Assembly (NCBI GenBank): GCA_024640625.1
Contig: JAHEER010000002.1
Span: 1-64,000, forward strand
Direction of reading: 5' to 3'
From: Desulfobulbaceae bacterium
GTDB taxonomy: Bacteria; Desulfobacterota; Desulfobulbia; Desulfobulbales; Desulfocapsaceae
Length of the DNA: 64,000 nt
Shown here: positions 10,074 to 48,105 of the stretch, piece after piece
Numbering within the stretch: position 1 is the stretch's first letter
Layout of the letters: every line of letters starts with the position of its first letter
Notes under the pieces: model-generated
Told to the model about the DNA's origin: nothing
Database searches by the model: none
What the model saw: the letters and a program-made list of their open reading frames with translations, nothing else
Program-made: the position numbers and the translations under genes

Positions 10074-10868
10074 TCAAATGATGTCGAGCACCATCTTGGT
10101 GGCGATCAGGATAAGCAGCAGCGCAAATATTTTTTTCAGGTTCTCCACCGGCAATCTATGGGCCAGCCTGGCGCCCAGTGGAGCGGTGAAAATGGAAATT
10201 GCGGCAATCCCGAACAAGGCCGGCAGATAAATGAAGCCGATGGAGTAGTCGGGAAGGCCCTCCGTCCCCCAGCCGATTAACAGATACCCGAGAGTTCCCG
10301 CCGCTGCGATTGGCAGACCAATGGCCGCCGAGGTGCCGATGGCGTGATGCATGGAAATGTTGCACCAAACCAGAAAAGGCACCGACAGTGAGCCGCCGCC
10401 GATACCGACCAGGCTGGAAACAAAGCCGATTACAAAGCCGGCAGCGAAAAGGCCCGGGAGGCCGGGAATCTGGCGTGACGCTCTCGGCTTCCGGTTGGTC
10501 AGCATCTGTACTGAGATAAAATAGAGAAAGAGGGAAAAAAACACGATCAGGGATCTGGTCGACAGAATCGAGGCGAACGACGATCCAGCCAGGGTTCCGG
10601 CTACTATTCCGGCGGCTATCCGGATGACCACCTGCCAATGAACCGCGCCCCGCCGGTGATGGGCCCTGAGGCTCGAAACGGAGGAGAAAATAATGCAGGC
10701 CAAAGAAGTGCCGAGGGCGAGGTGCATGATGATATCCTGGGACACACCCTGGTGGGGGAGGAGGTACACCAGGATCGGAACGATTACCCCGCCGCCTCCA
10801 ACTCCAAGCAAACCCGCCAGAAGGCCGACAATGGCTCCGACCGCGCAGTAGGTGAGCAGGGTCAGCAT
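10074..10868 (-). CDS. TSUP (TauE/SafE) family anion exporter, copy 1
   Basis: A 264-residue membrane protein with about eight helices and the two TSUP signature repeats: GLLAGLLGVGGGGVIVPIL (about residues 15-33) and FVSSLVGIGGGSLSVPFL (about 147-164). TSUP proteins carry sulfite, sulfoacetate, sulfur compounds or organic anions across the inner membrane. It is the last gene of a three-gene minus-strand run, starting 10 bases beyond the stop of the CGH-motif partner gene, so it is probably cotranscribed with the Fe-S module. A close paralogue lies at 27526-28323. Substrate unknown. Confidence 0.9.
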   Translation of the reverse strand: MLTLLTYCAVGAIVGLLAGLLGVGGGGVIVPILVYLLPHQGVSQDIIMHLALGTSLACIIFSSVSSLRAHHRRGAVHWQVVIRIAAGIVAGTLAGSSFASILSTRSLIVFFSLFLYFISVQMLTNRKPRASRQIPGLPGLFAAGFVIGFVSSLVGIGGGSLSVPFLVWCNISMHHAIGTSAAIGLPIAAAGTLGYLLIGWGTEGLPDYSIGFIYLPALFGIAAISIFTAPLGARLAHRLPVENLKKIFALLLILIATKMVLDII

Positions 10869-10878
10869 CAGTGCCGGT

Positions 10879-11559
10879 TTACTCTCCCCTGGCGGCGGTG
10901 TTTAAAATCTTCATCGCCCGCGAGATGTTGAACACCCCGCAGACGCAGAATTTCGCCATGCAGCAGGCGGCATCTTCTGGGTCGATGCGTCCTTCTTTGA
11001 CCCGGTCAATCATCTTTTTGGCGAAATGAGCCGAGACCATGCCATGGCCGCACATGGTCGATATCGACATGGTATCCCTGTCTGGAAGACGGTCGGTATC
11101 TCCATGGAAGCCGAGCGTATATTCCACTGCGTGCGGGGTTATCTCTACCTCGCCGCAGATATCCCTGACGTTGTCGACCAGGGCGCTGACATTGACTGAC
11201 AGGCCCAGATCCAGGGCTTTAACGTCGGCGATGAAATTCTTGACGCGCTCCGGATGGTCAAAGACAACCGCCGCCGATCCGGCCGCCGGAATTTCGTCGA
11301 TCAGCTCTTCATAGGTGGTCTTCTCCTTTCTGCCGGTAAAATAAAGTTTGATGAAGCTCAGATCTTTTTCTGGGCGGTAAAGCGAGTTGACCAGTGCGTT
11401 TCCCATGTTGATCGGTTCATATTTAATGGCGGCTCTGAGAAAAGCCTTAGCTTTGTCGAGAGATCCCTCGTCGTTGAATCCTTTGCCGGCCATGGCAAAC
11501 ACGATGAAGTCGTTGCGTTGGGTATCTTCCGTTCCGTATCGATGCAGTGTGTTCGTCAT
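10879..11559 (-). CDS. CGH/CxCG small partner protein, module copy A
   Basis: A 226-residue protein I do not recognise as a named family. It is a paralogue of the products at 43866-44513 and 45338-45976. Shared features: an MT(H/N)(S/T)LHR start, a glycine-rich N-terminal core, a VSAL(V/I)D-type strand, TPHAVEYTLGFHG, ISTMCGHGMVS (about residues 170) and KFCVCGVFN near the C terminus. Three conserved cysteines and a histidine suggest a metal or Fe-S site. I place the start at the ATG at 11559, not at 11565, because GGAGG is then 7 bases upstream and the start aligns with the paralogues. It follows the 4Fe-4S gene within a few bases, which implies a two-subunit complex. Confidence 0.85.
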   Translation of the reverse strand: MTNTLHRYGTEDTQRNDFIVFAMAGKGFNDEGSLDKAKAFLRAAIKYEPINMGNALVNSLYRPEKDLSFIKLYFTGRKEKTTYEELIDEIPAAGSAAVVFDHPERVKNFIADVKALDLGLSVNVSALVDNVRDICGEVEITPHAVEYTLGFHGDTDRLPDRDTMSISTMCGHGMVSAHFAKKMIDRVKEGRIDPEDAACCMAKFCVCGVFNISRAMKILNTAARGE

Positions 11560-11561
11560 GA

Positions 11562-12383
11562 TCATGCCTCCGCGGCAGCTGCAGACCGGTTGGAGACGCG
11601 GCCCAGTCCAAGATTGACTTTTGCCCAGCCGATTGCGAACCCTTCGGCACGCAGAATATCTTTCAACGGATCAGAACCATCCTCGGCACAGACGGTCGAT
11701 GCGCCAATACTGATTACCGTCTTTGCCGTTGTGCAGATCTCTTTCAAGGCCGCAAGGGTTGAGGCCGTATCCTCGAGTTTGACGGTAACCTCGACGATAC
11801 AGGAAAGCACTTTTTCATCGAGCAGATCTTTTCTGATATGTCCCGTAGCTATATCGGTCATCAGTTGCGTAACCGGATTGCCGGCTTCAAAGGTGATCTT
11901 TTCCTTTGCCAGCGCAGTCGTGACTGTTTCCACATCCCTGAAGTAGGTACCGATTCCAGGACGCCCGAATTCGACCACCACACCGACCTCGCCATGCTTG
12001 ATTCGACCACTGACATCGTTTGTTTTGACCTCTTCCGTCCCCCGGCCGTGGACGCCGGTTGACTCATGGGTTACCATCGGGTCGCTGAAGGCGCGGCGGA
12101 CGATGCGGGGCCATTCCAGGTCTTCAGGGATGAAAGCGTCTGTGGGGCAGACATCAGGGTCAGGCTGAAAGCGCAGGCTGACTGATTTAAGGATTTTGCG
12201 AATCAGCCTGGTGGGGCCGGGCGGCAGATGTTCCGGGCTTAGACTTCGGTGACAGTTATGACACTCAACACAGTTCTCCCGGTTGATTTCCGCCAGTCCG
12301 TCGTCATCGATGAAAATTGCCCCAACCGAGCAGACCGGGACGCAATTGGCGCAGCCGACACATTTATCTTTATTGATTTTCAC
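11562..12383 (-). CDS. 4Fe-4S protein with GRGTEEVKTND domain, module copy A
   Basis: About 273 residues from a GTG at 12383, chosen for its AGGA ribosome site and because it matches the paralogue starts; an ATG at 12446 would overlap the predicted -10 element. The N terminus has one normal [4Fe-4S] motif, CVGCANCVPVC. The second, CVECHNC, is split from its last cysteine (DVCPTDAF) by an insertion of about 29 residues that the two paralogues lack. The rest is a conserved domain with GRGTEEVKTNDVSGR (about residues 110-125) and EFGRPGIGTYFRD. It is probably cytoplasmic and forms a complex with the CGH protein. Function unknown; an electron-transfer or redox-enzyme subunit is inferred. Confidence 0.85.
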   Translation of the reverse strand: MKINKDKCVGCANCVPVCSVGAIFIDDDGLAEINRENCVECHNCHRSLSPEHLPPGPTRLIRKILKSVSLRFQPDPDVCPTDAFIPEDLEWPRIVRRAFSDPMVTHESTGVHGRGTEEVKTNDVSGRIKHGEVGVVVEFGRPGIGTYFRDVETVTTALAKEKITFEAGNPVTQLMTDIATGHIRKDLLDEKVLSCIVEVTVKLEDTASTLAALKEICTTAKTVISIGASTVCAEDGSDPLKDILRAEGFAIGWAKVNLGLGRVSNRSAAAAEA

Positions 12384-12435
12384 TCGACAGTTCCTCGCTT
12401 GATAGTGGCTTTTTAGATCATGGCAAGCGACACCG

Positions 12436-12464
12436 ATTGTATACAACGATCATCAGAAAAGCAA
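12436..12464 (-). promoter_or_regulatory. Sigma-70-type promoter with overlapping palindrome
   Basis: On the minus strand, TTGCTT (12459-12464) and TACAAT (12436-12441) are separated by 17 bases, giving a start about 45 bases before the GTG of the copy-A Fe-S gene. A perfect palindrome, TTGTATACAA (12437-12446), overlaps the -10 box. This is the form of operator bound by many GntR-family repressors, and a GntR gene is present at 35769. The link between them is inference. Confidence 0.45.
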
Positions 12465-23265: not shown

Positions 23266-24438
23266 ATGAGTGCACCGAGCGGACGCCATTTTCTGCAAAT
23301 CCCTGGACCGAGTAACGTACCGGACAGAATTCTGCATGCCATCGGTCAGCCGACCATCGATCATCGCGGACCGAAATTCCAGAAGCTCTCGGAGGAGGTG
23401 CTCATCGGTTCCAGGCGGATATTCAAGACCTCGGGGCCGGTGGTGGTTTTCCCGACCTCCGGTACCGGAGCCTGGGAGGCGGCTTTGCTGAATACCCTAA
23501 GCCCCGGCGACAAGGTTTTGATGTTTGAAACCGGCCATTTCGCCACCCTCTGGTGCAATATGGCTAAGAAATTCGGCCTGGAGGTGGATTTTGTCCCGAC
23601 CGACTGGCGTCACGGTGTCGACCCTCAGATCGTCGAGGACAAGCTCAAAGCAGATTCCGGTCACCAGATAAAATCAGTCAATATCGTGCACAACGAGACC
23701 TCCACCGGGGTGCTCAGCAGGGTGGCGGAGGTCAGGCAGGCCATAGACAATGCCGGACATCCGGCCCTGTTCATGGTCGATACCATTTCCTCCCTTGGCT
23801 CCACCGATTACCGGCACGAGGAATGGCAGGTGGACGTCACGGTCGGGTGCTCCCAGAAAGGCTTGATGCTGCCGCCGGGACTCGGCTTAAATGCGATCAG
23901 TGAAAAGGCGCTGGAGGCTTCCAGATCAAACAGCTTCGTTCGCCATTTCTGGGACTGGAACGATATGCTCAACGCCAACGAGAAATTCTTTTATCCGTCG
24001 ACACCCTGCACCAACCTGCTGTTCGGCCTGCGGGAGTCGATTAAGATGCTGGAGGAGGAGGGCCTTGATAAGGTATTCGCCCGGCATGCCCGTTTTGGAG
24101 AGGCTACCCGTCGGGCAGTGCGTGCCTGGGGCCTTGAAATTCTCTGCCAGGAGTCCCTTGAATACAGTCCGGTGCTGACCGCCGTGCTGATGCCTCAGGG
24201 AAAAGGTGCAGATGCGCTGCGCAAGGTGATTCTGGATAATTTCGATATGTCGCTCGGCAACGGCCTGGGCAAAGTAGCCGACAAGGTGTTCCGGATAGGG
24301 CATCTCGGCGACCTGAACGATCTGAGCCTGATCGGCACCCTCGCCGGTGTCGAGATGGGACTGGAACTGGGCGGCATCGAGCACACTAAAGGAGGGGTTG
24401 CAGCGGCCATGCAATACCTCTCGGAAACTGTTTCCTGA
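23266..24438 (+). CDS. Serine/alanine-glyoxylate aminotransferase (class V)
   Basis: A 390-residue PLP enzyme with a GAAGGAG ribosome site. The opening QIPGPSNVPDRILHAI and the segments PTSGTGAWEAALLN (about 65-78), VHNETSTGV (about 143-151) and FMVDTISSLGS (about 167-177) match the serine-glyoxylate/alanine-glyoxylate aminotransferase group. The PLP lysine is in GCSQKGLMLPPGLG (about residue 196). It would convert glyoxylate to glycine with serine, alanine or aspartate as amino donor. With GlcD-type dehydrogenases on both sides, a glycolate to glyoxylate to glycine route is the simplest reading, though not the only one. Confidence 0.92.
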   Translation: MSAPSGRHFLQIPGPSNVPDRILHAIGQPTIDHRGPKFQKLSEEVLIGSRRIFKTSGPVVVFPTSGTGAWEAALLNTLSPGDKVLMFETGHFATLWCNMAKKFGLEVDFVPTDWRHGVDPQIVEDKLKADSGHQIKSVNIVHNETSTGVLSRVAEVRQAIDNAGHPALFMVDTISSLGSTDYRHEEWQVDVTVGCSQKGLMLPPGLGLNAISEKALEASRSNSFVRHFWDWNDMLNANEKFFYPSTPCTNLLFGLRESIKMLEEEGLDKVFARHARFGEATRRAVRAWGLEILCQESLEYSPVLTAVLMPQGKGADALRKVILDNFDMSLGNGLGKVADKVFRIGHLGDLNDLSLIGTLAGVEMGLELGGIEHTKGGVAAAMQYLSETVS

Positions 24439-34893: not shown

Positions 34894-35721
34894 ATGAAAC
34901 TGTGCTTTAACGCTGGTCCTGAACCGATGGAAGAATATTTCTCCTTCGCTCATGAAAATGGTTTCCCGTGGATGGAATTGAGCTGCAACAACCCAAACAA
35001 TTTCCTGGATAAATGGAACCCGGAACGGATCGACGGGATCAAGCGGCTCAGGGATAAATACGGGCTGCGCTACGGCCTCCATTCCGCCTCCTTCGTCAAC
35101 GCCGCGGAGATAGAACCCACGGTGAGGGTTGCCGCCCGGCAGCACCTGCTCGACTATGTCCAGCTGGCCCACGATCTGGAAGCGGAATATATCGTGCTGC
35201 ACTTCGGTTACCACTTCAGCCTGTTCATGGACGAAGTCTTCCGCTGCCTGGTGGAGACGTACAAACCGGTGGTGGAACTGGCCGAGAAATACGAGTTGCC
35301 GATTGGTATCGAGAACATGAACAAGATGCATGAAGATTGCGAGGTCGCTTACCTGGGAGTCACCCCGGACGAACTCGGTCGCGTCTTCGACGAGATACCG
35401 TCGGACTATTTTGGGCTGACGCTCGACATCGCCCACGCCAGCCTGCTCCCCGGAGGCTGTGACCCGTTTATTGATCGCTATATGGACAGGATCATTTCCA
35501 CTCATGTCAGCGACAACGACCTCGTACTGGACCATCACCTGCCGGTAGGGGAAGGAAAGATAGATTTCAAGGCGGTGTTCAAACGACTGATCGACATCGA
35601 CTTCAAGGGCACCTTGAATATCGAGCTGCCGCGCAGCAACGAGGACAGACTGCTGAGCAAGAAACGGCTGGAGCCTATTCTCGAAGAACTCGGCGTGCTT
35701 GATGCGGCGCTGCAGCCATAG
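34894..35721 (+). CDS. Sugar phosphate isomerase/epimerase-like TIM-barrel protein
   Basis: A 275-residue protein of the xylose isomerase-like TIM-barrel superfamily. A GGGAGG ribosome site precedes the ATG. Barrel strand ends with likely metal ligands are visible: VLHFGYH (about 107-113), PIGIENMNK (about 137-145, Glu), LTLDIAHASLL (about 177-187, Asp and His), STHVSDND (about 204-211, His) and LNIELPRSN (about 241-249, Glu). The ligand set is that of metal-dependent isomerases, epimerases or inosose-type dehydratases and AP endonuclease relatives. It probably acts on the acid or sugar acid handled by this locus. The GntR gene follows 47 bp later. Confidence 0.87.
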   Translation: MKLCFNAGPEPMEEYFSFAHENGFPWMELSCNNPNNFLDKWNPERIDGIKRLRDKYGLRYGLHSASFVNAAEIEPTVRVAARQHLLDYVQLAHDLEAEYIVLHFGYHFSLFMDEVFRCLVETYKPVVELAEKYELPIGIENMNKMHEDCEVAYLGVTPDELGRVFDEIPSDYFGLTLDIAHASLLPGGCDPFIDRYMDRIISTHVSDNDLVLDHHLPVGEGKIDFKAVFKRLIDIDFKGTLNIELPRSNEDRLLSKKRLEPILEELGVLDAALQP

Positions 35722-35768: not shown

Positions 35769-36509
35769 ATGGTTCCTTTTGGCAAGATGACAATGGCGAA
35801 ATACAAGAGTAAAGGCGCCATCATTGCCGAACAAATTCTGCTGAAAATCGAGTCAGGCGAGTATCCGTCCGGCAGCAGGCTGCCGGCCGAGCGGCTGATT
35901 TCCGAGCAGATGGGCGTCAGCCGCCCCTCGGTGAGGGAGGCCATTTCTGCCCTGCATATCATCGGTATTGTCGAAAGCAGACCCGGCGACGGTAATTACG
36001 TGGCGGAACATCTGGATTTCGGCGGGCTTTCCTACCAATTGAAGAATATCTTCGACGAAAGCGACAGCCCGTTTGAGATTCTGCAGGCCCGCAAAGCCTT
36101 CGAAGCCGGTGCAGTCAGCCTGGCCATCGAAGAGGGAAGCGACCGGGATATCGAGAATATCGCCAGGATCTGGAACGAGAAACGGGCCCTGGGCCGCTCA
36201 GGGGATTTTAACAGCTACACCCGCATGGGCAATGAACTTCACTACACTATTGCCCAGGCTACCGGAAACCGCATCGTGATCAGCGTCGTCGAACGGCTTC
36301 TGGACATTACCGATCAACCCCTCTGGCCGCGTATGCGTCAATTGTACCTGGAGAAGCACCCCGAACAGATGCAGCGTTCACTCGACATCCATGACCGGCT
36401 CGTCCAGGCGATCCAGGAACGCAACTCCTACGAGGCAATCAAGGTGATAGAAGAACATTTCAACCTGCTGATCGGACAGCTCTATAACGCGACTGGGATG
36501 GATGAGTAA
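35769..36509 (+). CDS. GntR family transcriptional regulator, FadR/FCD type
   Basis: A 246-residue regulator. The N-terminal winged helix (about residues 15-80) contains YPSGSRLPAERLISEQMGVS and SRPSVREAISAL. The C-terminal FCD domain (about 95-235) carries likely metal-ligand histidines in NELHYTIAQATGN (about 158) and DIHDRLVQAI (about 208-217), with an aspartate in between. FCD regulators bind small carboxylates, often through a metal. Its position between a TIM-barrel enzyme and tctCBA suggests control of uptake and catabolism of a dicarboxylate. Candidate operators lie at 34800, 33755 and perhaps 12437. A strong terminator follows its stop. Confidence 0.92.
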   Translation: MVPFGKMTMAKYKSKGAIIAEQILLKIESGEYPSGSRLPAERLISEQMGVSRPSVREAISALHIIGIVESRPGDGNYVAEHLDFGGLSYQLKNIFDESDSPFEILQARKAFEAGAVSLAIEEGSDRDIENIARIWNEKRALGRSGDFNSYTRMGNELHYTIAQATGNRIVISVVERLLDITDQPLWPRMRQLYLEKHPEQMQRSLDIHDRLVQAIQERNSYEAIKVIEEHFNLLIGQLYNATGMDE

Positions 36510-39700: not shown

Positions 39701-39769
39701 ATTCCTGCAATTCTGCAGAAGTACCCGTCAGCCTCCGACCATTCGAGACGTCGACAGAAGGAGTTGCAA

Positions 39770-40321
39770 GTGAAGACTATCGCAGTACACCTTGAGCGCT
39801 GCACCGGCTGCAGGACGTGCGAACTCTATTGTGCGACTGAAAGAGGAAGCAACAGCAAGACGCTGCTGCAGGCCGCTCAGGAAGATGTTGCACCCAAGGC
39901 CAGGATACGGGTCGAGGGCAGCAACCGGTTATCCGTGGCTCTGCAGTGCAGGCACTGTCTGCAGGCGCCCTGTTTAGACTCTTGCCTGACAGGGGCATTG
40001 AACCGCGACAGTGCAACCGGGACCGTACTTATCCAGGAGAACCTCTGCATCGGCTGCTGGACCTGCACCCTGTTCTGCCCGTATGGCGTCATCTATCCCT
40101 GGCCGGAACGCAAGATTGCCCTGAAATGCGATCGCTGTATCTACATGGAGGTTCCCGTCTGCGTCGATGTCTGTCCAACCAAGGCGCTGGTACTGATTGA
40201 AATGGATCAGTACGAAGAGGCTATCAGACGAAAGACCTCCCGCCTTATCACGGACCTGCAGGACGAAAACGGGCGGGAATCGACCCTGCTGCTCGATCTG
40301 GCAAGCCCAGGCGGTCGTTGA
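39770..40321 (+). CDS. CooF-like polyferredoxin (four 4Fe-4S motifs)
   Basis: A 183-residue cytoplasmic ferredoxin of the CooF/DmsB class. The GTG at 39770 has AAGGAG six bases upstream; a TTG at 39764 overlaps that site. Four cysteine groups are visible: CTGCRTCELYC (residues 11-21), CRHCLQAPCLDSC (about 60-72), CIGCWTCTLFC (about 90-100) and CDRCIYMEVPVCVDVC (about 119-134). CooF proteins carry electrons to or from the CO dehydrogenase CooS. The gene directly downstream is CooS-like and the one after is an FAD/NAD oxidoreductase, the common CooF-CooS-FNOR order. The next start lies about 30 bases on. Confidence 0.9.
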   Translation: MKTIAVHLERCTGCRTCELYCATERGSNSKTLLQAAQEDVAPKARIRVEGSNRLSVALQCRHCLQAPCLDSCLTGALNRDSATGTVLIQENLCIGCWTCTLFCPYGVIYPWPERKIALKCDRCIYMEVPVCVDVCPTKALVLIEMDQYEEAIRRKTSRLITDLQDENGRESTLLLDLASPGGR

Positions 40322-40350
40322 TAACCAAAAAACCAGGAACCGGAAGAGCA

Positions 40351-41826
40351 ATGGAAACTATTCATTTAAAAACCGCTGACCCGGTCAGCCAGCAGCTGTT
40401 GCGTTCCGCGGCGCAACGGGGAATCGATCTCTTCTGGGACCGCTACGAGAAGGCACAACCCCAGGATGGCTTCATGCGGCTGGGGCTCTATTGTCCGTTT
40501 GAATGTATGTACGGCCCGTGCAGGATCGACCCGTTCGGACGGGGCCCTGCACTCGGCATCTGCGGTCTTGACCGGGACCAGATGGTGGCCGCGACCATGC
40601 TGAGGCTCTGCCACCAGGGAGCAATGCAGGCCCTGGCCGCTGCACCACACTGCACTGGATCAGACGAACTGGCTTCCAGCAGCGTTCTCGGGGCCCTGAT
40701 CGACACCGCACTCTCGGCCACGCAGCAGGAAACCCTCTGTTGCTCGGAGATTTTCGAGACAGCAGGACTGCTACAGCGCAGTTCACCCAGTCATGAAGAA
40801 TTACTGACCAGAGCCTTGCGACTCGGCCTGCTGACGCTGGCCCTAGTCGAGCAGGCCAGCACTCCTGCAGGCGCTGACACCCTGGAGTGCAGCCTGGGCT
40901 ATGGGGTCTTCCCGGAGACCGGGGTCAGAATCGGATTCAGCGGTCGACCGCCCCGGGATCTGATACAGGCTCTGGAGCAGGCACTGCTAAAGGAGCCCGA
41001 GTCGCCGGCTGTTCTGTTGTCACTGGGCGATTGGCTCCAAGTTGACGACCGGTTTATACCGATTGGCACCACCTCGGGCGAAGCCGAACTGGTGCTGAGC
41101 AGCGGTGCCATTCACCTGCTGGTTGCCGGGCCGGGCACGGATCCCGGTCTTCTGCATGTCAGTGAGCAGACAGGCGTGCCGGTCGTGCTGAACAACACCA
41201 CGCCTGACGCCATCGACATTCTCAAACGTGCCCGGACCCGTGCCGAACTATCGTCCCACCCGGATCCGTTTACCGACGTTTCGGCCGAACTGCTTACCAG
41301 GGTAATCATGTCCGCTACTTCATTTTCGATGGCGGTTGTGAGCGACTCGGTAGATCAGGTCGCCCTGATCGGTGGCAGCGACACACCTCACCTGCCGCTC
41401 GGAAGTCTCACTGCCGATCTCGTCTCTGGGCTGGCCGACAGCGGCATAAGAATTGCCGGCTGGGGAGACACGGCCCTGTGGATGGCCAAACAGACGCAGG
41501 CAGAAGCGCCAGGGCAGCAGCCCCTCACTCTGGAAAACGGTCAGGGGCCCCTGCTGGCCGTCAAAGGGCTGGCCGCAGCCGGCAAACTCGATGCCCTCAG
41601 AGGGATCTGCTTTACCGGCATAAAAGATGTCAAAGACTTCAGCATGGCCCTGGGCCTGGCCTATCTCGGCTGCCGGGTCAGCATGGCCACGCCCATTCCA
41701 GTACAGGGCAGTAAAAACGTCGTGCACTCACTGGCGCGCATGATCGGGGACCACGGTGGGGAACTGCTCCATTTTGATCATCCTGCCGAGGCGGAGAGTC
41801 TGACAGATTGGTTCACTGCAGTTTAG
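40351..41826 (+). CDS. CooS-like protein lacking the C-cluster ligands
   Basis: A 491-residue homologue of the Ni-Fe CO dehydrogenase CooS, which is normally about 630. The N terminus keeps family wording: GIDLFWDRYEKAQPQ, then CPFECMYGPCRIDPFG (about residues 48-63) and GICGLDRDQM. These supply the four B-cluster cysteines, with one extra residue between the first two. Both D-cluster cysteines are replaced (QDGF and LYC positions). The C-cluster ligands of real CooS are not found: AGCNN reads LIGGSD, TGCGAG reads IAGWGDT, and MGSCVDNSR reads CFTGIKDVKD. It therefore probably does not oxidise CO. It may relay electrons between the CooF-like ferredoxin and an unknown partner. Confidence 0.85.
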   Translation: METIHLKTADPVSQQLLRSAAQRGIDLFWDRYEKAQPQDGFMRLGLYCPFECMYGPCRIDPFGRGPALGICGLDRDQMVAATMLRLCHQGAMQALAAAPHCTGSDELASSSVLGALIDTALSATQQETLCCSEIFETAGLLQRSSPSHEELLTRALRLGLLTLALVEQASTPAGADTLECSLGYGVFPETGVRIGFSGRPPRDLIQALEQALLKEPESPAVLLSLGDWLQVDDRFIPIGTTSGEAELVLSSGAIHLLVAGPGTDPGLLHVSEQTGVPVVLNNTTPDAIDILKRARTRAELSSHPDPFTDVSAELLTRVIMSATSFSMAVVSDSVDQVALIGGSDTPHLPLGSLTADLVSGLADSGIRIAGWGDTALWMAKQTQAEAPGQQPLTLENGQGPLLAVKGLAAAGKLDALRGICFTGIKDVKDFSMALGLAYLGCRVSMATPIPVQGSKNVVHSLARMIGDHGGELLHFDHPAEAESLTDWFTAV

Positions 41827-41833
41827 TGGTCAT

Positions 41834-43132
41834 GTGGATGATGACAATCAACGGAGTCTGGCAGTGGATTGCGTAGTAATCGGAGGCGGCGTTGCCGGCC
41901 TGCAGGCGGCACTGAGCTATCGCAGGGCGTTTAAGGAAAAAACCGTAACCCTTATCGATGCCGAGCGTGAAGTGGGCTACTACCGTACACTTCTTCCCCA
42001 ATTCATGAATCGCTCCATCCCGGAAAACAAACTATTCTTCTGGCACAACCAGGATGATCCGCAGTTCAGGCTGATTTCCGGGGTAAGAGTCGAGACCGTT
42101 AATCGCGACAACAGGACATTGTCGCTCAGCAACGGATCACAGGTAGAGTATCGCCGGTTGATCATCGCCTCGGGCGGCCGTCCCATTGTCCCGCCGGTAT
42201 GCGCGGTCGATCGGATCGATGGAATCTTCCCGGTACGGAGCCTGACCGCGGCCAGGGCTGCCCGTGACTGGCTGCCGCAGCACCCTGGCGTGGTCATTGT
42301 CGGCGGCGGACTGGTCGGGGTGAAGACGGCTGCCCATCTTGCCGGACAGGGTTTTCCCGTCACCCTGGTCGAGAAAGAAAACCACCTGCTGCCCCAGGCC
42401 CTGTCCAGCCAGGCTGCAGAACTGGTGGAAGAGCATCTGCAGAGGAAAAAGGTACGGCTGCTGCTGGGAAGTACCGTTGAAGATATACAATCCACCGATA
42501 GTTCCATCCGGGCAGTCAGGGCTAACGGTCAATGGCTGGATTGCCAGACCCTGTTCGTGGCTGCCGGATCGGTTCCCGAGATCGATTTTCTCGCCGATTC
42601 GGGGTTGCTCAGGAAAGGAAATCTGGAGGTAAGTCGAACGCTGCAGACCGAGGACGAATACATCTTCGCAGCCGGCGATGCCGTCACCATTGTCGAGCGC
42701 GGCTCTTTTACTCCGTGGACATGGCCCCAGGCCGTGGTGCAGGGACAGCTGGCTGCCGGCAACCTGTATGCACCGGCTCCGGTTTCGCTCTCCTGTCTGT
42801 CCAGGGTCAACGCGATGAACTTGAACGGCCTGTCCCTCGTTGTGCTCGGCATACCGGTTGCTGGAGCCCGACGGAGCATGCTCTCAAGACCCGGTGACGG
42901 AGTGCTCAGAGAGCTGTATCACGTAGACGGCAAGATCGTCGGCGGGGCGCTGGTAGGTGATATCACGAACGCGGGAAGACTGCACTGGATGATGACTGTC
43001 GGTGAACGGGTAGATATCGATTTCACTGCACTGCTCGAACCCCGCATCAATACCTTTGCCCGCCTGTCACCCAGTTGTGTTAACCATAACCTACGGGCCG
43101 TGCTGCTGCCCTCCAGGGAGTGTGAAACATGA
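41834..43132 (+). CDS. FAD/NAD(P)-dependent oxidoreductase (FNOR type)
   Basis: A 432-residue two-dinucleotide-binding flavoprotein, starting at GTG. The FAD motif is VIGGGVAGLQAA (about residues 15-26), the NAD(P) motif VIVGGGLVGVKTAAHLA (about 152-168) with an acidic end of strand 2 (TLVEKE) favouring NAD, and the flavin-contact motif EDEYIFAAGDA lies near 273-283. The redox-active cysteine of NADH oxidases and CoA-disulfide reductases (near residue 43) is absent; that region reads YYRTLLPQFMN. This fits an NADH:ferredoxin or rubredoxin-type reductase. In CooF-CooS-FNOR operons it links the Fe-S chain to NAD(H). Its stop overlaps the next start. Confidence 0.88.
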   Translation: MDDDNQRSLAVDCVVIGGGVAGLQAALSYRRAFKEKTVTLIDAEREVGYYRTLLPQFMNRSIPENKLFFWHNQDDPQFRLISGVRVETVNRDNRTLSLSNGSQVEYRRLIIASGGRPIVPPVCAVDRIDGIFPVRSLTAARAARDWLPQHPGVVIVGGGLVGVKTAAHLAGQGFPVTLVEKENHLLPQALSSQAAELVEEHLQRKKVRLLLGSTVEDIQSTDSSIRAVRANGQWLDCQTLFVAAGSVPEIDFLADSGLLRKGNLEVSRTLQTEDEYIFAAGDAVTIVERGSFTPWTWPQAVVQGQLAAGNLYAPAPVSLSCLSRVNAMNLNGLSLVVLGIPVAGARRSMLSRPGDGVLRELYHVDGKIVGGALVGDITNAGRLHWMMTVGERVDIDFTALLEPRINTFARLSPSCVNHNLRAVLLPSRECET

Positions 43133-43854
43133 TCGTTTTCAAGGATGTGTGCGTAGGGTGCGGCAGGTGTCAACCCTATTGCCCGGCCGGTGCAATCCAT
43201 TTCGAGGATTATTGCTCCACTGTCGACCAGGAACTCTGTTTCGAGTGCGGAACCTGTCTGCGCAGCGAGATCTGTCCGGTCGACGCGATCCGCGAACCCT
43301 CCAATGTCTACCAGTACCCCCGCGCACTGCGAAAGTATTTCAGCGATCCGACCTCGACCCATGCCGTGACCGGCATCCAGGGACGAGGAACGGAGGAATC
43401 CAAGACCAACGACGTGACCCTGCGCTGCGGCCCGGGCCAGGTCGGTATCGCCATCGAGATCGGCCGACCGACGCTTGGCATGGGGCTCGAAGATATACAG
43501 AAAATCACCCGGGCGCTGGCCCGCAACGGCATCCATGAAATCGAACCGAACAACCCGATCAATTCGATGATCCTCGACCACCGGACCGGCGATCTCAAGC
43601 CTGAGCTGCTCGGAGAACGGGTGCTGAGCGCCATCATCGAAATGAGCATCGACCGGGAGCGGCTGCCGGATATCCTGCGGGCAATCCGGGAAGTGATCCC
43701 GGAGCTGGACTCCGTTTTCACGCTCGATGTCGTGACCATGCTTGAGCCCGGTCTGACCGTACCATCCGATGTCCTGAGTTCTATCGAGGCGGAAGGGTTA
43801 ACCTGGCGGCCAAACGCGAAAATCAACATGGGGCTCGGCAAAATAACCGAGTAG
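43129..43854 (+). CDS. 4Fe-4S protein with GRGTEE(V/S)KTND domain, module copy B
   Basis: A 241-residue paralogue of the products at 11562 and 44592. Two complete [4Fe-4S] motifs: CVGCGRCQPYC (residues 8-18) and CFECGTCLRSEIC (about 37-49). The rest is the module domain: SDPTSTHAVTGIQ, GRGTEESKTNDVTLR (about 85-99), EIGRPTLGMGLEDI, and a C terminus KINMGLGKITE. Domain and length match copy C; copy A differs by an insertion in its second cluster. ATG overlaps the FNOR stop (ATGA), which couples translation to the flavoprotein. It probably receives electrons from FNOR or the ferredoxins and acts with the CGH protein next to it. Function unknown. Confidence 0.86.
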   Translation: MIVFKDVCVGCGRCQPYCPAGAIHFEDYCSTVDQELCFECGTCLRSEICPVDAIREPSNVYQYPRALRKYFSDPTSTHAVTGIQGRGTEESKTNDVTLRCGPGQVGIAIEIGRPTLGMGLEDIQKITRALARNGIHEIEPNNPINSMILDHRTGDLKPELLGERVLSAIIEMSIDRERLPDILRAIREVIPELDSVFTLDVVTMLEPGLTVPSDVLSSIEAEGLTWRPNAKINMGLGKITE

Positions 43855-43865
43855 ACAAGAAAACC

Positions 43866-44513
43866 ATGACACACAGCTTACACCGTGAAGGGACTCTCGA
43901 ATCGCTGGACAAAGACTATGTCGTCTTTATCTATCCAGCCCGGGGCTATAACTACAAGGGTTGTGCACCCAAGGTTCGGCACCTGGTGGAGATCGTCTAC
44001 GAGGTCGGCCCTGCCAACATGATCGCGACGACGCTGAGAAAAAACTTGTACAGCGGAGTGGAGCCGGACGAGGTCCTGGACAGTATAGAGGAGGGCTGCC
44101 GGGTTTTCACCGTGTTCAACAGCAGGGAAAAACTGAAGGAGTTGCTGACCTCTTTCAAGGAGGCAGACGAGGGCATCTCTATCGTGGTCAGCGGCCTCAT
44201 CGATCGGGTCAGGGAGGTAGCAGCCGAGGTCGGCCTCAACCCCCATACCATCAATCTTTCACTAGGCATCCATGGCGGAACCGAAGCCCTGCCTGCCGCA
44301 GAGATCCGTGAGTTCACGACGATGTGCGGCCATGCGATGATTGCTCCCCACCTGGTCGAGGATGTCATCCGCCAGGTCAAGACGGGCAAACTCGATACCT
44401 GGGAAGGCAGCATCAGGCTGGCGAAACCATGCGCCTGCGGAATCTACAATCCTTATCGCTCCATGGAACTACTCGACAACCTGGCTCCGCTCTACACGGT
44501 GTCGCGCTGGTAA
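43866..44513 (+). CDS. CGH/CxCG small partner protein, module copy B
   Basis: A 215-residue paralogue of the products at 10879 and 45338, 11 bases after the copy-B Fe-S gene. Shared features: MTHSLHREG start, DYVVFIYPARGYN, VVSGLIDRVREV (about residues 109-120), NPHTINLSLGIHGG (about 127-140), TTMCGHAMIAP (about 154-164) and KPCACGIYNPYRS (about 188-200). The first residue of the CxCG pair is conserved, although the preceding Phe is a Pro here. Three cysteines and a histidine are invariant among the three copies. There is no signal peptide or membrane segment, so a soluble cytoplasmic subunit is expected. Confidence 0.85.
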   Translation: MTHSLHREGTLESLDKDYVVFIYPARGYNYKGCAPKVRHLVEIVYEVGPANMIATTLRKNLYSGVEPDEVLDSIEEGCRVFTVFNSREKLKELLTSFKEADEGISIVVSGLIDRVREVAAEVGLNPHTINLSLGIHGGTEALPAAEIREFTTMCGHAMIAPHLVEDVIRQVKTGKLDTWEGSIRLAKPCACGIYNPYRSMELLDNLAPLYTVSRW

Positions 44514-44591
44514 GGAGACTGAAAAGGCGGGGTAGAGACGACCAGGAAAATATCACCTAAAGTTATATCAACCACGACCAGAGGAAGAACA

Positions 44592-45320
44592 ATGCCTGCA
44601 ATCGACAAAGAAACATGCACCGGCTGCCGGATCTGCCAGACGTACTGCACGGTCGATGCCATCGAATACGCCGACCGTAAATGCTACATTGACAGGGATT
44701 TATGCACCGAGTGCTATGTCTGCCTGCGTATGAAGGTGTGCCCTGAAGATGCAATCTTCGCCGAGGAACTGGTGGGCTTCTACAAACAGTTCCAGCATGT
44801 CATCAGCGACCCGGTTGAGAACCACGGGGTGACCGGCGTGACCGGCCGGGGCACCGAGGAGGTGAAAACCAACGACGTTTCCGGTCGGGTCAAAAAAGGC
44901 TGGATCGGTCTCTCCATCGACATGGGGCGGCCCGGTCTCGGCGTCTACCTCAGGGACGCCGAGAAGGTTGCTATGGCAATGGCGCGGGCTGGATTCAAGC
45001 TGGCTCCGCAGGAAGAATCACCGCTCGCCGCCCTGATGCCCGATGATAGTACCGGGAAGCTTGAAGAGGGCTGCCTCGATTACCGGTTGCTATCGGTAAT
45101 CATCGAGGGACGCTGTGAGGAGAAGAATGCCAAAGACGTATTCAAGGCCCTGCTCAAGATTGAAAAAGAGATCGACACCGTTTTCTCGGTCGGCCTGATC
45201 AGCCGGGTAGACGAGAATGGATACTGCCGGGCCCTCGAGTTTCTCGACGAACTCGGCATCGAGCGGCCCCATCGCGGCAAGGTCAACCCCGGCCTCGGCA
45301 AACCATTATCAATTGATTAA
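44592..45320 (+). CDS. 4Fe-4S protein with GRGTEE(V/S)KTND domain, module copy C
   Basis: A 242-residue paralogue of copies A and B. [4Fe-4S] motifs CTGCRICQTYC (residues 9-19) and CTECYVCLRMKVC (38-50) are complete. The module domain has SDPVENHGVTGV, GRGTEEVKTNDVSGR (about residues 87-101), DMGRPGLGVYLRDAEKV and a C terminus KVNPGLGKPLSID. In wording the domain is nearer to copy A than to copy B, so B and C are not a very recent tandem duplication. The gene is 78 bp after copy B of the partner, preceded by AGAGGAAGAAC, and is followed 17 bases later by its own partner. Confidence 0.86.
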   Translation: MPAIDKETCTGCRICQTYCTVDAIEYADRKCYIDRDLCTECYVCLRMKVCPEDAIFAEELVGFYKQFQHVISDPVENHGVTGVTGRGTEEVKTNDVSGRVKKGWIGLSIDMGRPGLGVYLRDAEKVAMAMARAGFKLAPQEESPLAALMPDDSTGKLEEGCLDYRLLSVIIEGRCEEKNAKDVFKALLKIEKEIDTVFSVGLISRVDENGYCRALEFLDELGIERPHRGKVNPGLGKPLSID

Positions 45321-45337
45321 CCGGCAGGAGATATATC

Positions 45338-45976
45338 ATGACTCATTCACTTCACCGCTCCGGCGATATAGAATCCCAGAAGAAGGACTACGTCTGGTTC
45401 ATGTACCAGACCAAGGGCGTCAACGATGTCGATATCAAGCCCAAGGCGCTCGAGTTCATCGCCGTAGCCGAGGCTGTCGGTTCGGAGAACTGGGGAGACG
45501 TCAAAACCGGCCCGAAGCTGCGCTACTCGATCGAGGAGATCAAGGACGGCATCACCGACAAGTCGCGGCTGCGTGGGATTTTCACGAAAAAGGAACAGGT
45601 CGTCGACTTCCTGAAACAGATCAAGGAGAAGGACCTGGGCATGTCGGTGATCATTTCCGGCGTCCTGTCGGAGGTGATTCCCGCCTGCAGGGAGGCCGGA
45701 GTGACCCCGCACTCGATCAATTACTCGCTCGGGGTCTGGGGAAAAAAGGACAAGCTGCCCGACGAGGATACTCTGGCGATTACGACGATGTGCGGTCACC
45801 ACATGATCCCGCCGAAGTTCGTCGCCTATGTGAAGCGCCGGGTCAAGAAAGGCAAGATCACCCCTGAGGAAGGGGCGAAAATGCTGGCCGAATTCTGTTA
45901 TTGCGGCATCTTCAACCACATCCGCTGCGCCGACATTTTCAAGGAGAAACTGGCGGCGGAGCACACAGACGAATAG
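45338..45976 (+). CDS. CGH/CxCG small partner protein, module copy C
   Basis: A 212-residue paralogue of copies A and B with a GGAGAT ribosome site. It opens MTHSLHRSGDIESQKKDY, then has VIISGVLSEVIPA (about residues 104-116), TPHSINYSLGVWGKKDKLPD in part (about 121-139), TTMCGHHMIPP (about 147-157) and EFCYCGIFNHIRC (about 184-196). It keeps the invariant CGH and CxCG groups; the extra histidine after CGH is unique to this copy. It is highly charged and soluble. It closes the duplicated part of the cluster before the DUF1932 dehydrogenase. Confidence 0.85.
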   Translation: MTHSLHRSGDIESQKKDYVWFMYQTKGVNDVDIKPKALEFIAVAEAVGSENWGDVKTGPKLRYSIEEIKDGITDKSRLRGIFTKKEQVVDFLKQIKEKDLGMSVIISGVLSEVIPACREAGVTPHSINYSLGVWGKKDKLPDEDTLAITTMCGHHMIPPKFVAYVKRRVKKGKITPEEGAKMLAEFCYCGIFNHIRCADIFKEKLAAEHTDE

Positions 45977-46021
45977 ACCCCTGTGGCGTGCGTGCGGGGC
46001 AATCAGCGATACGGGTAGGTT

Positions 46022-46909
46022 TTGGTAAAACTTGGATTCATCGGTTTCGGCGGCGCCGGCTATGGTCTTGCCAGGGGCTTGCGGGAAGGGGGGGCGATTG
46101 ACATCTTTTTTTTCGACCCGATGCTGCACGATGAGTCGGCCGGTCCCTTGCTTAACAAGCGTGCTGACGAAACCGGAGCCCGGCCCTGCAGCGGCATCGC
46201 TGAACTGATCGAAGGGGCTGAGATCATCATCTCCTGTGTGACCGGTTCAGCTGCGCTGGCGGTGGCCGAGGAGGCTGCTCTGCATCTGGGGCCGCAGCAC
46301 CTGTTCGCGGATGTCAACACCGCATCTCCGCGGACCATGGAGCTTGTGTACGAAACGCTGCGGGGGAGCGGTTCCGCGTTCGCCGACGTTGCACTCATGG
46401 GAGCTGTCCCGGCATTTTTGCACCGAGTCCCGTGTCTTGCTTCCGGCAACGGCGCGCAGCGGCTGAAAACCTCCATGGAACCGCTTGGCATGGACATTAC
46501 CTGGGTCGGACAGGCGCCGGGCCAGGCTTCGGCCATCAAGATGCTTCGTTCTGTCTTTATGAAGGGATTCCTGGCGCTGCTGATCGAGACGCTTGGGGCG
46601 ACTCACCGGTACGGGGTCGACGGCATCGTACTCGATTCCCTGGCCCGCACCATGGCGCAGAACGACTTCCTCGAAACCGTCCGGCTGCAGCTCGCCAAAG
46701 GGGTCATCAGCGCGGAGCGCATGTCCCATGAAATGGAGGCCGTGGTGCAGACCCTGGTCGAGATGGGCCTGCCCGCCACGATGTCCGCAGCAACCCGGGA
46801 CACTCTCCACTGGTGCAGCGGACTTGAACTGGCGAAATATTTCAATCACGAAACGGACGGTTCTCTCGAAGAGATTCTTGACGCGTTGACCGTTGAAGCC
46901 CGGAAATGA
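46022..46909 (+). CDS. NAD(P)-dependent hydroxyacid dehydrogenase-like protein (DUF1932 C-terminal)
   Basis: A 295-residue protein of the 6-phosphogluconate/3-hydroxyisobutyrate dehydrogenase superfamily, starting at TTG behind GGTAGGT. The Rossmann motif GFIGFGGAGYGLARGL is at residues 5-20. The substrate-binding segment DVALMGAVP (about 121-129) and the likely catalytic lysine in ASAIKMLRSVFMKGF (about 160-174) are visible. The C-terminal half matches DUF1932, found in dehydrogenases of unknown or acid-sugar substrates. Its start is 45 bases after module copy C and its stop overlaps the MFS start, so it is part of the same operon. It may interconvert a beta-hydroxy acid and its oxo form. 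Confidence 0.85.
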   Translation: MVKLGFIGFGGAGYGLARGLREGGAIDIFFFDPMLHDESAGPLLNKRADETGARPCSGIAELIEGAEIIISCVTGSAALAVAEEAALHLGPQHLFADVNTASPRTMELVYETLRGSGSAFADVALMGAVPAFLHRVPCLASGNGAQRLKTSMEPLGMDITWVGQAPGQASAIKMLRSVFMKGFLALLIETLGATHRYGVDGIVLDSLARTMAQNDFLETVRLQLAKGVISAERMSHEMEAVVQTLVEMGLPATMSAATRDTLHWCSGLELAKYFNHETDGSLEEILDALTVEARK

Positions 46910-48105
46910 AGAAAAACCTGACGTTGCTGCTCTGCTTTTTCTTCGGCCATGCGGTTTTTCACTTCCTGGCCCAGAGCTTTGCCGTCCTGCTGCCGTCCAT
47001 CCAACAGACATTTGGCGTTACCCCGGTCCAGATCGGTGCCCTGATCACCGTCAGGGAAATCGCCACCGGTCTGATCTCGCTTCCCGGCGGCCTGCTCTCC
47101 GACTATTTTGCCAAGCGCCGGGCTCTCCTGCTCAGCGGCTGTCTGGTGCTTTACGCCATTGCCTGGCTCCTGATCGGCTGGGCCCCTTACTTTGCAGTAC
47201 TCTCCATCGGCATGGTGCTGATTGCAGCAGCCAGCGCCGTATGGCACCTGCCGTCGCTGGTCGAACTGGGCGCCCGCTTCCCGGACAGGCGCGGCACCGT
47301 GTTCGCGATCCACGGGGCCGGAGGCAGTTCGGGAGATATCGTCGGTCCGATGGCTACAGGAATGCTGCTTGCCTATTTCTCCTGGCGGGAGATCCTGACC
47401 ATCTACACCGCCCTGCCGCTGGTCATCGCGGTTTGGACTTTCCTGCTGATCAGCAGACTCTACCGCCGCGGAGAGACCGGTCAAAATCACAAGGCGGTGC
47501 AGCAGCGGGCCAACTCTAAGGAGAATCTTCGGCTCTGCTGGGCGATCCTGAAAACCACCGATATCTGGCTCGTGAACGTCGTTGCGGGTTTACGCTCGAT
47601 GTGCTTTACCGTGCTGATCACCTTCCTGCCGATATACATGCACGACAGCGGCTTCAGCGCGCCCTCGATCGGTTTCCATTTCGGCCTGCTCTGGGCCATC
47701 GGGTTGCTGGCCAGCCCGGCCATGGGCTTCTTCTCCGATCGCTGGGGGCGCAAAATCGTGCTGGTCCCGGCTTTACTTTATTCGAGCATGATGGTCGGAA
47801 TCCTTGCCTTTTACGGCACCGGTCCGCTGTTCACGCTGCTCATCGTCCTGCTCGGTTTTTCCATCAGGAGCGACTATTCGCTGATCAATGCGACGATCAT
47901 CGACATCGTCAAAGGCAGGGTCGAGAATACCATGCTCGGCATCCTGTCATTCTCCCGCTCCCTGATGGGAGCAGTTGCACCTCTGCTTGCCGGTTTTCTT
48001 TACCAGCAGTCGGGTATGCGAGCTGCTCTGCTCTTTATCAGCGCGTTATTTCTGGTGGCGGCGGCTCTCTTCTCGATTGCCAGACTGGATCGTGCTCAGC
48101 CTTGA
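46906..48105 (+). CDS. MFS transporter
   Basis: A 399-residue permease with 12 predicted helices. Motif A of the first half reads GGLLSDYFAKRRALLLSG (about residues 63-80), and the second-half equivalent is GFFSDRWGRKIVLVP (about 273-287). The central cytoplasmic loop is around residues 188-215. The ATG overlaps the dehydrogenase stop in ATGA, so it belongs to the CooF-to-MFS run and probably imports or exports that pathway's metabolite. The 236 bases after its stop contain only a short CTTGC/GCAAG repeat (48158-48175) and no clear terminator. Confidence 0.9.
   Translation: MKKNLTLLLCFFFGHAVFHFLAQSFAVLLPSIQQTFGVTPVQIGALITVREIATGLISLPGGLLSDYFAKRRALLLSGCLVLYAIAWLLIGWAPYFAVLSIGMVLIAAASAVWHLPSLVELGARFPDRRGTVFAIHGAGGSSGDIVGPMATGMLLAYFSWREILTIYTALPLVIAVWTFLLISRLYRRGETGQNHKAVQQRANSKENLRLCWAILKTTDIWLVNVVAGLRSMCFTVLITFLPIYMHDSGFSAPSIGFHFGLLWAIGLLASPAMGFFSDRWGRKIVLVPALLYSSMMVGILAFYGTGPLFTLLIVLLGFSIRSDYSLINATIIDIVKGRVENTMLGILSFSRSLMGAVAPLLAGFLYQQSGMRAALLFISALFLVAAALFSIARLDRAQP

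Follow-up and report, generated by a model that had tools for sequence, protein, structure and literature searches.

Gene clusters that combine a carbon monoxide dehydrogenase (CODH) with the electron carriers CooF and FNOR have been described, including groups C-1, C-2 and others (PMC6344411) and a cluster in Geobacter (PMC4703632). CODH-family proteins that lack CO activity are also known, as represented by the clade D enzyme CODH-V of Carboxydothermus, which carries an Fe-S-O hybrid cluster (PMC13240472, PMC13056359). In this study, we examined a run of nine genes within a 64,000-nucleotide stretch of DNA (hereafter called the window; contig JAHEER010000002.1) from a Desulfobulbaceae bacterium. 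The run encodes a CooF-like polyferredoxin, a CODH relative termed CooSL, an FNOR, and two copies of a pair of subunits, FeS and CGH, that together form the FeS/CGH module. We regard the run as probably a genuine redox system, and the explanation we consider best, with somewhat more confidence than doubt, is that CooF, CooSL, FNOR, FeS, and CGH constitute a five-protein redox unit that acts on an imported hydroxy- or oxo-carboxylate.

The electron half of this system is a variant of the known CODH-CooF-FNOR arrangement. In both, the three components are adjacent, with CooF and FNOR as the electron exit or entry to NAD(P). However, the window lacks a catalytically competent CODH subunit in this position, as the C-cluster ligands are absent. 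CooSL resembles CODH-V in being a CODH-family protein without CO activity, as judged in the case of CooSL from its sequence. Unlike CODH-V, which retains an active-site metal cluster, CooSL retains none of the ligands for it, and it sits in a gene run whereas clade D genes have mostly been described as standing alone. In PadEFGHI, the NADH-dependent phenylglyoxylate dehydrogenase, NAD(H) is likewise connected via a flavoprotein and a polyferredoxin to a catalytic Fe-S enzyme. However, no POR/thiamine pyrophosphate 2-oxoacid subunits were found among the nine genes (Pfam), and the PadH and PadI scores fall far below the family cutoffs (155 versus 475 bits for FNOR, whose best NCBIfam match is PadH; 69 versus 700 bits for CooF against PadI, with HydN-type proteins also matched). 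Overall, the proposed mechanism would most resemble that of an NAD(P)H-linked ferredoxin-type oxidoreductase, which is a known kind, and the catalytic half (FeS/CGH) belongs to no family in the sequence libraries searched.

The nine genes of the run are as follows.

39764..40321, + strand: CooF-like polyferredoxin, 185 aa; TTG 39764 start, with GTG 39770 also possible (Pfam Fer4_11 and related families)
40351..41826, + strand: CooSL, CODH-family protein with B-cluster cysteines only (TIGR01702, alignments, homologue starts, and the ratio of nonsynonymous to synonymous substitution rates, dN/dS)
41834..43132, + strand: FNOR, FAD/NAD(P)-dependent pyridine nucleotide oxidoreductase (Pyr_redox_2; nearest named NCBIfam family PadH)
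43129..43854, + strand: FeS_B, 2[4Fe-4S] ferredoxin domain with invariant GRGTEExK and a PII/ACT-like plait; ATGA overlap with FNOR
43866..44513, + strand: CGH_B, partner subunit with invariant C154-G-H156 and C189-x-C191 (alignment; AlphaFold2 predicted local distance difference test, pLDDT, 93)
44592..45320, + strand: FeS_A, second FeS subunit, 39% identity to FeS_B
45338..45976, + strand: CGH_A, second CGH subunit, 38% identity to CGH_B
46022..46909, + strand: DUF1932/NAD_binding_2 dehydrogenase (Pfam, NCBIfam)
46906..48105, + strand: MFS permease, MFS_1 (Pfam)

These genes span positions 39764 to 48105 with gaps of -4 to +78 bp, and all nine of the packed, same-strand open reading frames (ORFs) reported in an earlier note on this DNA were recovered. 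The run lies 63 bp behind tctA, in agreement with the placement directly behind tctCBA in that note, and the overlap it described between FNOR and module copy B is indeed present (-4 bp). The remaining gaps are 29 bp between CooF and CooSL (counting from ATG 40351), 7 bp between CooSL and FNOR, 11 bp between FeS_B and CGH_B, 78 bp between CGH_B and FeS_A, 17 bp between FeS_A and CGH_A, 45 bp between CGH_A and the DUF1932 gene, and -4 bp between the latter and the MFS gene. The CooSL ORF reaches back to TTG 40318, which would give a 4-bp overlap with CooF, but conservation of METIHLK at the start of homologues makes ATG 40351 the probable start. The CooF translation contains 16 cysteines, corresponding to four [4Fe-4S] (cubane) motifs. 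Every gene of the run is under purifying selection, with dN/dS values of 0.03-0.21 relative to a Desulfofustis locus (L011). Rfam and tRNA scans gave no matches.

CooSL matches the Prismane/CO_DH_cata families over its first ~100 residues only, and its score against TIGR01702 (53 bits, residues 20-103) is below the cutoff of 478 bits. The same genome encodes two real CODHs elsewhere (L091, 593 bits; L092, 579 bits). CooSL is shorter than these enzymes, yet it can be aligned across the whole fold. All four B-cluster cysteines are kept, and the pattern CPxxCMxGPC...GxCG is conserved in homologues of the same type (type 1, below). Both D-cluster cysteines, which are located at the dimer interface, are replaced (PQDGF and GLYCP/GLSCP are found there). 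Furthermore, all six C-cluster ligands (His261 and Cys295, 333, 446, 476, and 526 in C. hydrogenoformans numbering) are substituted. The earlier note's description of a CooS-like protein lacking the C cluster is therefore correct, and CooSL cannot be a CO dehydrogenase. Its dN/dS of 0.16-0.21 (0.21 against L011) indicates constraint, and the values for FeS_B (0.04) and CGH_B (0.05) against L011 are several-fold lower.

The association of these genes extends well beyond the window. Searches across genomes with an FeS profile yielded at least 80 loci and at least 247 confirmed relatives. The order CooF-CooSL-FNOR-FeS_B-CGH_B is found in four loci from Thermodesulfobacteriota (L011, L012, L015, and L049), one labelled Myxococcota (L057), and one from Rhodospirillales (L055). 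A Halanaerobiales locus (L034) has the identical gene order with a CooS-like protein of 422 aa that keeps the equivalents of Cys333, 446, 476, and 526. We also ran a CooSL profile against 395 genomes of the window's phylum and examined the surrounding regions. This search added seven type 1 loci (L125-L127 and L129-L132) and four loci with type 2 CooS-like proteins (L134-L137), whose gene order is as in type 1. Type 3 loci have the order FeS-CGH-FNOR-CooF-CODH-like-tctCBA (L141-L144 and L150), with two more cut off at the contig start (L139 and L140). CooF and FNOR are kept beside the CooS-like protein in all three types. The earlier note had named the lack of any conserved association between the module and the CooS-like protein as grounds for abandoning the idea. 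Instead, the block recurs in Thermodesulfobacteriota, Myxococcota, Rhodospirillales, and Halanaerobiales, and the recurrence of a five-gene core in two gene orders and with three CooS-like types upholds the claim of one functional unit. That claim had covered all nine genes, of which the CooF/CooS-like/FNOR/FeS/CGH core stands. Judged by comparison of loci, neither the second copy of the module nor the MFS gene is part of this core, and both belong to the local version; an MFS permease at the matching position was found in no locus other than that of the close relative L011.

The linkage is also evident in the counts. Among the 395 genomes, 17 of 129 CODH-family matches have an FeS gene within 10 kb, and 16 of these 17 have an open frame shorter than 600 aa, a few being cut by contig ends. 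For matches with frames of at least 600 aa, only 1 of 96 is near a module (G007, type 3). The unlinked short CODH-like proteins that were examined comprise four at contig ends (G199, G093, G215, and G237) and one real exception, L138. Greedy ORF calls mislabelled some genes in GC-rich loci, and thus the absence of a gene from a relative's locus is not proof of its loss. An 853-aa FNOR in L015 is probably an open-frame artifact and was set aside; CooSL in that locus is a separate 482-aa ORF.

A maximum likelihood tree built from 44 CODH-family proteins places the module-linked representatives, together with L138, on one side of a branch with 99/97 support that separates them from the other CODHs. 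The inner branching order is unsure, with long branches for L138, L034, and the type 2 proteins. All six C-cluster ligands are present in three type 3 proteins of 561-562 aa (L139, L140, and L142), whereas four of the six have disappeared from close relatives of the same type (L141, L143, and L144). The matching C-cluster motifs are likewise absent from the G007 protein (L118). The active site has thus probably been lost more than once within one kind of gene context, which suggests that CO chemistry is not what this context selects for. In the FeS tree, FeS proteins linked to type 1 form one clade with that of L034 (support 99), and those linked to types 2 and 3 form separate clades. Therefore, the linkage either is old and was followed by losses or was made more than once. 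A serious possibility, to which we give a little less than even confidence, is that a CODH, after loss of its nickel site, has survived as a subunit dedicated to electron transfer within FeS/CGH, which would be a previously undescribed family of catalytic Fe-S enzymes with an unmapped reaction on hydroxy- or oxo-carboxylates.

We defined the FeS/CGH family as an FeS protein with eight cysteines and GRGTEExK encoded next to a CGH protein with C-G-H and C-x-C, and the modules in the window have these features. The FeS alignment shows eight invariant cysteines followed by GRGTEExK, GRP, and KxNxGxG, and invariant CGH positions are H6-R7, N29, C154-G155-H156, and C189-x-C191. The two genes are adjacent in almost every locus, and in Alphaproteobacteria the two profiles strongly match the same two genomes. 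About nine phyla contain FeS (Thermodesulfobacteriota, Bacillota, Synergistota, Chloroflexota, Acidobacteriota, Rokubacteria, Gemmatimonadota, Pseudomonadota, and others), with some phylum labels derived from metagenome bins. Carriers are rare, amounting to 29 of the 395 genomes of the window's phylum and 5 of 391 in a sample of the class Clostridia. Among cultured bacteria, Anaerosolibacter carboniphilus DSM 103526 has one copy.

CGH has no Pfam or NCBIfam family and gave only chance-level matches to PDB sequences. FeS matched PDB sequences in its ferredoxin domain only, apart from a single weak match of the C-terminal domain to glycerate kinase (E 0.0038). A plasmid tblastn search with FeS_A and with CGH_C, from a third module copy, returned no match. 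AlphaFold2 predicts a plait and a helical C-terminal part for CGH (pLDDT 93) and a ferredoxin domain with a PII/ACT-like plait for FeS (pLDDT 88). Structure comparison (Foldseek/VIA) singled out no solved structure. The best Z was 7.4 for CGH, and the FeS plait reached about 8 to PII-like proteins, values within the range of a common arrangement for this fold, and we do not claim kinship. A tentative lead is 6-hydroxynicotinate reductase (Hnr), an anaerobic reductase that depends on ferredoxin and has a similar combined size. No fused FeS-CGH protein or nicotinate context was found among module-carrying Clostridia (5 of 391 genomes) or Alphaproteobacteria (2 of 385, both clear matches and the second read as unfused), although the sampling of Hnr-bearing species is uncertain.

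The third, divergent module copy, absent from the earlier note, is at 10879-12446 on the - strand.

11562..12446, - strand: FeS_C
10879..11565, - strand: CGH_C
10074..10868, - strand: TauE-type exporter

This group lies opposite a 970-aa FAD/Fe-S oxidase, and a FeS_C-CGH_C-TauE group with an FAD oxidase is also present in Desulfofustis (L069).

Independent evidence on electron input comes from two Syntrophales loci (L031:7387-9513 and L032:713-2839), which encode fusion proteins of 708-709 aa that join FeS to a GltD-like NAD(P)H/FAD domain with Fer4_20. FeS therefore accepts an NAD(P)H/FAD partner, which supports a path from NAD(P)H through flavin to FeS. No such fusion exists in the window, where FNOR has its own gene and belongs to another subfamily, and the direction of flow there is not given by the fusion. 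Thus, the supported part of the electron chain proposed in the earlier note is its NAD(P)H/flavin/ferredoxin input, given FNOR and CooF alongside.

Genes bordering the module bear on the substrate, and those upstream of the run are the following.

34894..35721, + strand: AP_endonuc_2 TIM-barrel sugar-acid isomerase-like protein, retained in L012 (85%) and L129 (78%)
35769..36509, + strand: GntR/FCD regulator upstream of tctCBA, retained in L012
36543-37595, 37717-38172, and 38183-39700, + strand: tctC, tctB, and tctA, tripartite tricarboxylate transporter (TctC PF03401)

Tct homologues adjoin the module in many loci, and 2HCT and DUF401/CitMHS transporters occur beside others. FeS_A-type modules usually adjoin tct genes without a CooS-like partner. 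The DUF1932 protein is L-threonate dehydrogenase-like, with a score far under that family's cutoff (NCBIfam), and such a gene also adjoins the module in L011, L012, L015, and L034. Other enzymes encoded beside modules include Ldh_2, IDH/tartrate-dehydrogenase-like, 2-Hacid_dh, HIBADH, PdxA, IlvD, LeuCD-type dehydratases, DHDPS, LarA, and MmgE, and some lineages have AOR, POR, or RACo genes nearby. These neighbors fit a hydroxy- or oxo-carboxylate substrate and name none. The tartrate-like substrate suggested previously is compatible with them, and nothing beyond that points to it. A RACo-type ASKHA reductive activator (L136:13296-15332) follows a type 2 CooF-CooS-like-FNOR-FeS-CGH block. In Dehalococcoidia (L030, L036, and L048), the module adjoins tungsten aldehyde:ferredoxin oxidoreductase genes, accompanied in L030 and L048 by lactate-racemase (LarA) genes. 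Class V aminotransferase genes are found in another hydroxy-acid cluster of the window (23266-24438) and inside a type 3 block (L141:6538-7743, - strand).

From these observations, we infer an electron path and its direction, a role for CooSL, a cluster type for CGH, and a substrate class. FNOR would draw electrons from NAD(P)H and hand them over to CooF, and the CooS-like protein, with only its B-cluster [4Fe-4S], would serve as a docking scaffold and one-cluster relay. FeS, with two more cubanes and a PII-like plait, would deliver electrons to CGH, whose three invariant cysteines and invariant histidine would bind an open-site catalytic cluster. This last subunit, CGH, would then reduce, or in reverse oxidize, a hydroxy- or oxo-carboxylate imported by TctABC, and DUF1932 and related dehydrogenases would process the product. 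Modules that lack the CooF/CooS-like/FNOR block may use free ferredoxin or another flavoprotein. A reductase role makes sense in energetic terms, as NADH is able to drive the reduction of both 2-oxoacids and enoates.

Several observations weigh against this five-protein unit. Most module copies have no CooS-like partner, and CooSL would therefore be dispensable for the basic reaction. Conversely, L138 (G122:C67) encodes a 364-aa CooS-like protein with FNOR and a 659-aa protein, without an FeS/CGH module. The long branches of CooSL and its faster evolution relative to its neighbors also fit a relict kept for assembly. In addition, metal binding by CGH is deduced only from conserved cysteines and histidine, and the proposed substrate class derives from neighbors that differ between loci.

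Alternatively, CooSL might sense redox state or a gas, or might assist assembly, with a B-cluster CODH fold that regulates or matures the FeS/CGH enzyme. The catalytic cluster was repeatedly lost while the fold and B cluster stayed, the protein evolves fast, and redox-sensing roles have been proposed for CODHs without CO activity (PMC13056359). We nevertheless regard this role as unlikely given that electron carriers adjoin the CooS-like protein in all three types and that Pfam and NCBIfam searches of CooSL revealed no domain for DNA binding or signalling. It is similarly doubtful that FeS/CGH acts as an Fe-S lyase or isomerase without redox chemistry, resembling aconitase or serine dehydratase, that binds substrate on the open iron of a three-cysteine cluster kept reduced by its redox partners. 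CGH matches open-site clusters in the number of its invariant ligands and not in motif, dehydratases (IlvD, LeuCD-type, and MmgE) are frequent neighbors, and PII/ACT-like plaits are predicted in FeS and CGH alike. However, the eight invariant ferredoxin cysteines and the flavoprotein fusion and linkage of FeS exceed what cluster maintenance needs. Neither aconitase nor serine dehydratase was among the structure matches listed, a result that excludes nothing.

We consider it quite improbable that the unit still handles CO or CO2, with the type 3 proteins as active CODHs and the forms lacking a C cluster as decayed derivatives. The complete ligand sets of L139, L140, and L142 would permit this, but in L141, L143, and L144 the operon was kept in the same arrangement after four ligands were lost, CooSL has none of the six, and there is no CooC-type gene among the nine genes of the run (Pfam, NCBIfam). 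Least credible by far is a chance packing of independent operons in a compact genome. Promoter-like matches inside the run, little more frequent than in shuffled sequence, would be in its favor, but for the core it is countered by the five-gene block, which is kept across phyla in two gene orders.

The proposed five-protein redox unit would place CooSL in a lineage of CODHs wired to another enzyme. We found no description of a link between FeS/CGH and CODH-like proteins in the literature searched, which excluded most subscription journals. Previous surveys left out sequences shorter than 550 aa or scoring below 200 bits (PMC6344411) or those with altered C-cluster cysteines (PMC13240472), and a conserved lineage of this kind would therefore have been missed. 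Because its members form a graded series from six to zero C-cluster ligands in related gene contexts, the lineage is usable for studying how a metalloenzyme turns into an electron-transfer part. No assigned function was found for the FeS/CGH pair, and its reaction, once known, would annotate many carboxylate operons at a stroke in the roughly nine phyla that carry it, Acidobacteriota, Rokubacteria, and Chloroflexota among them.

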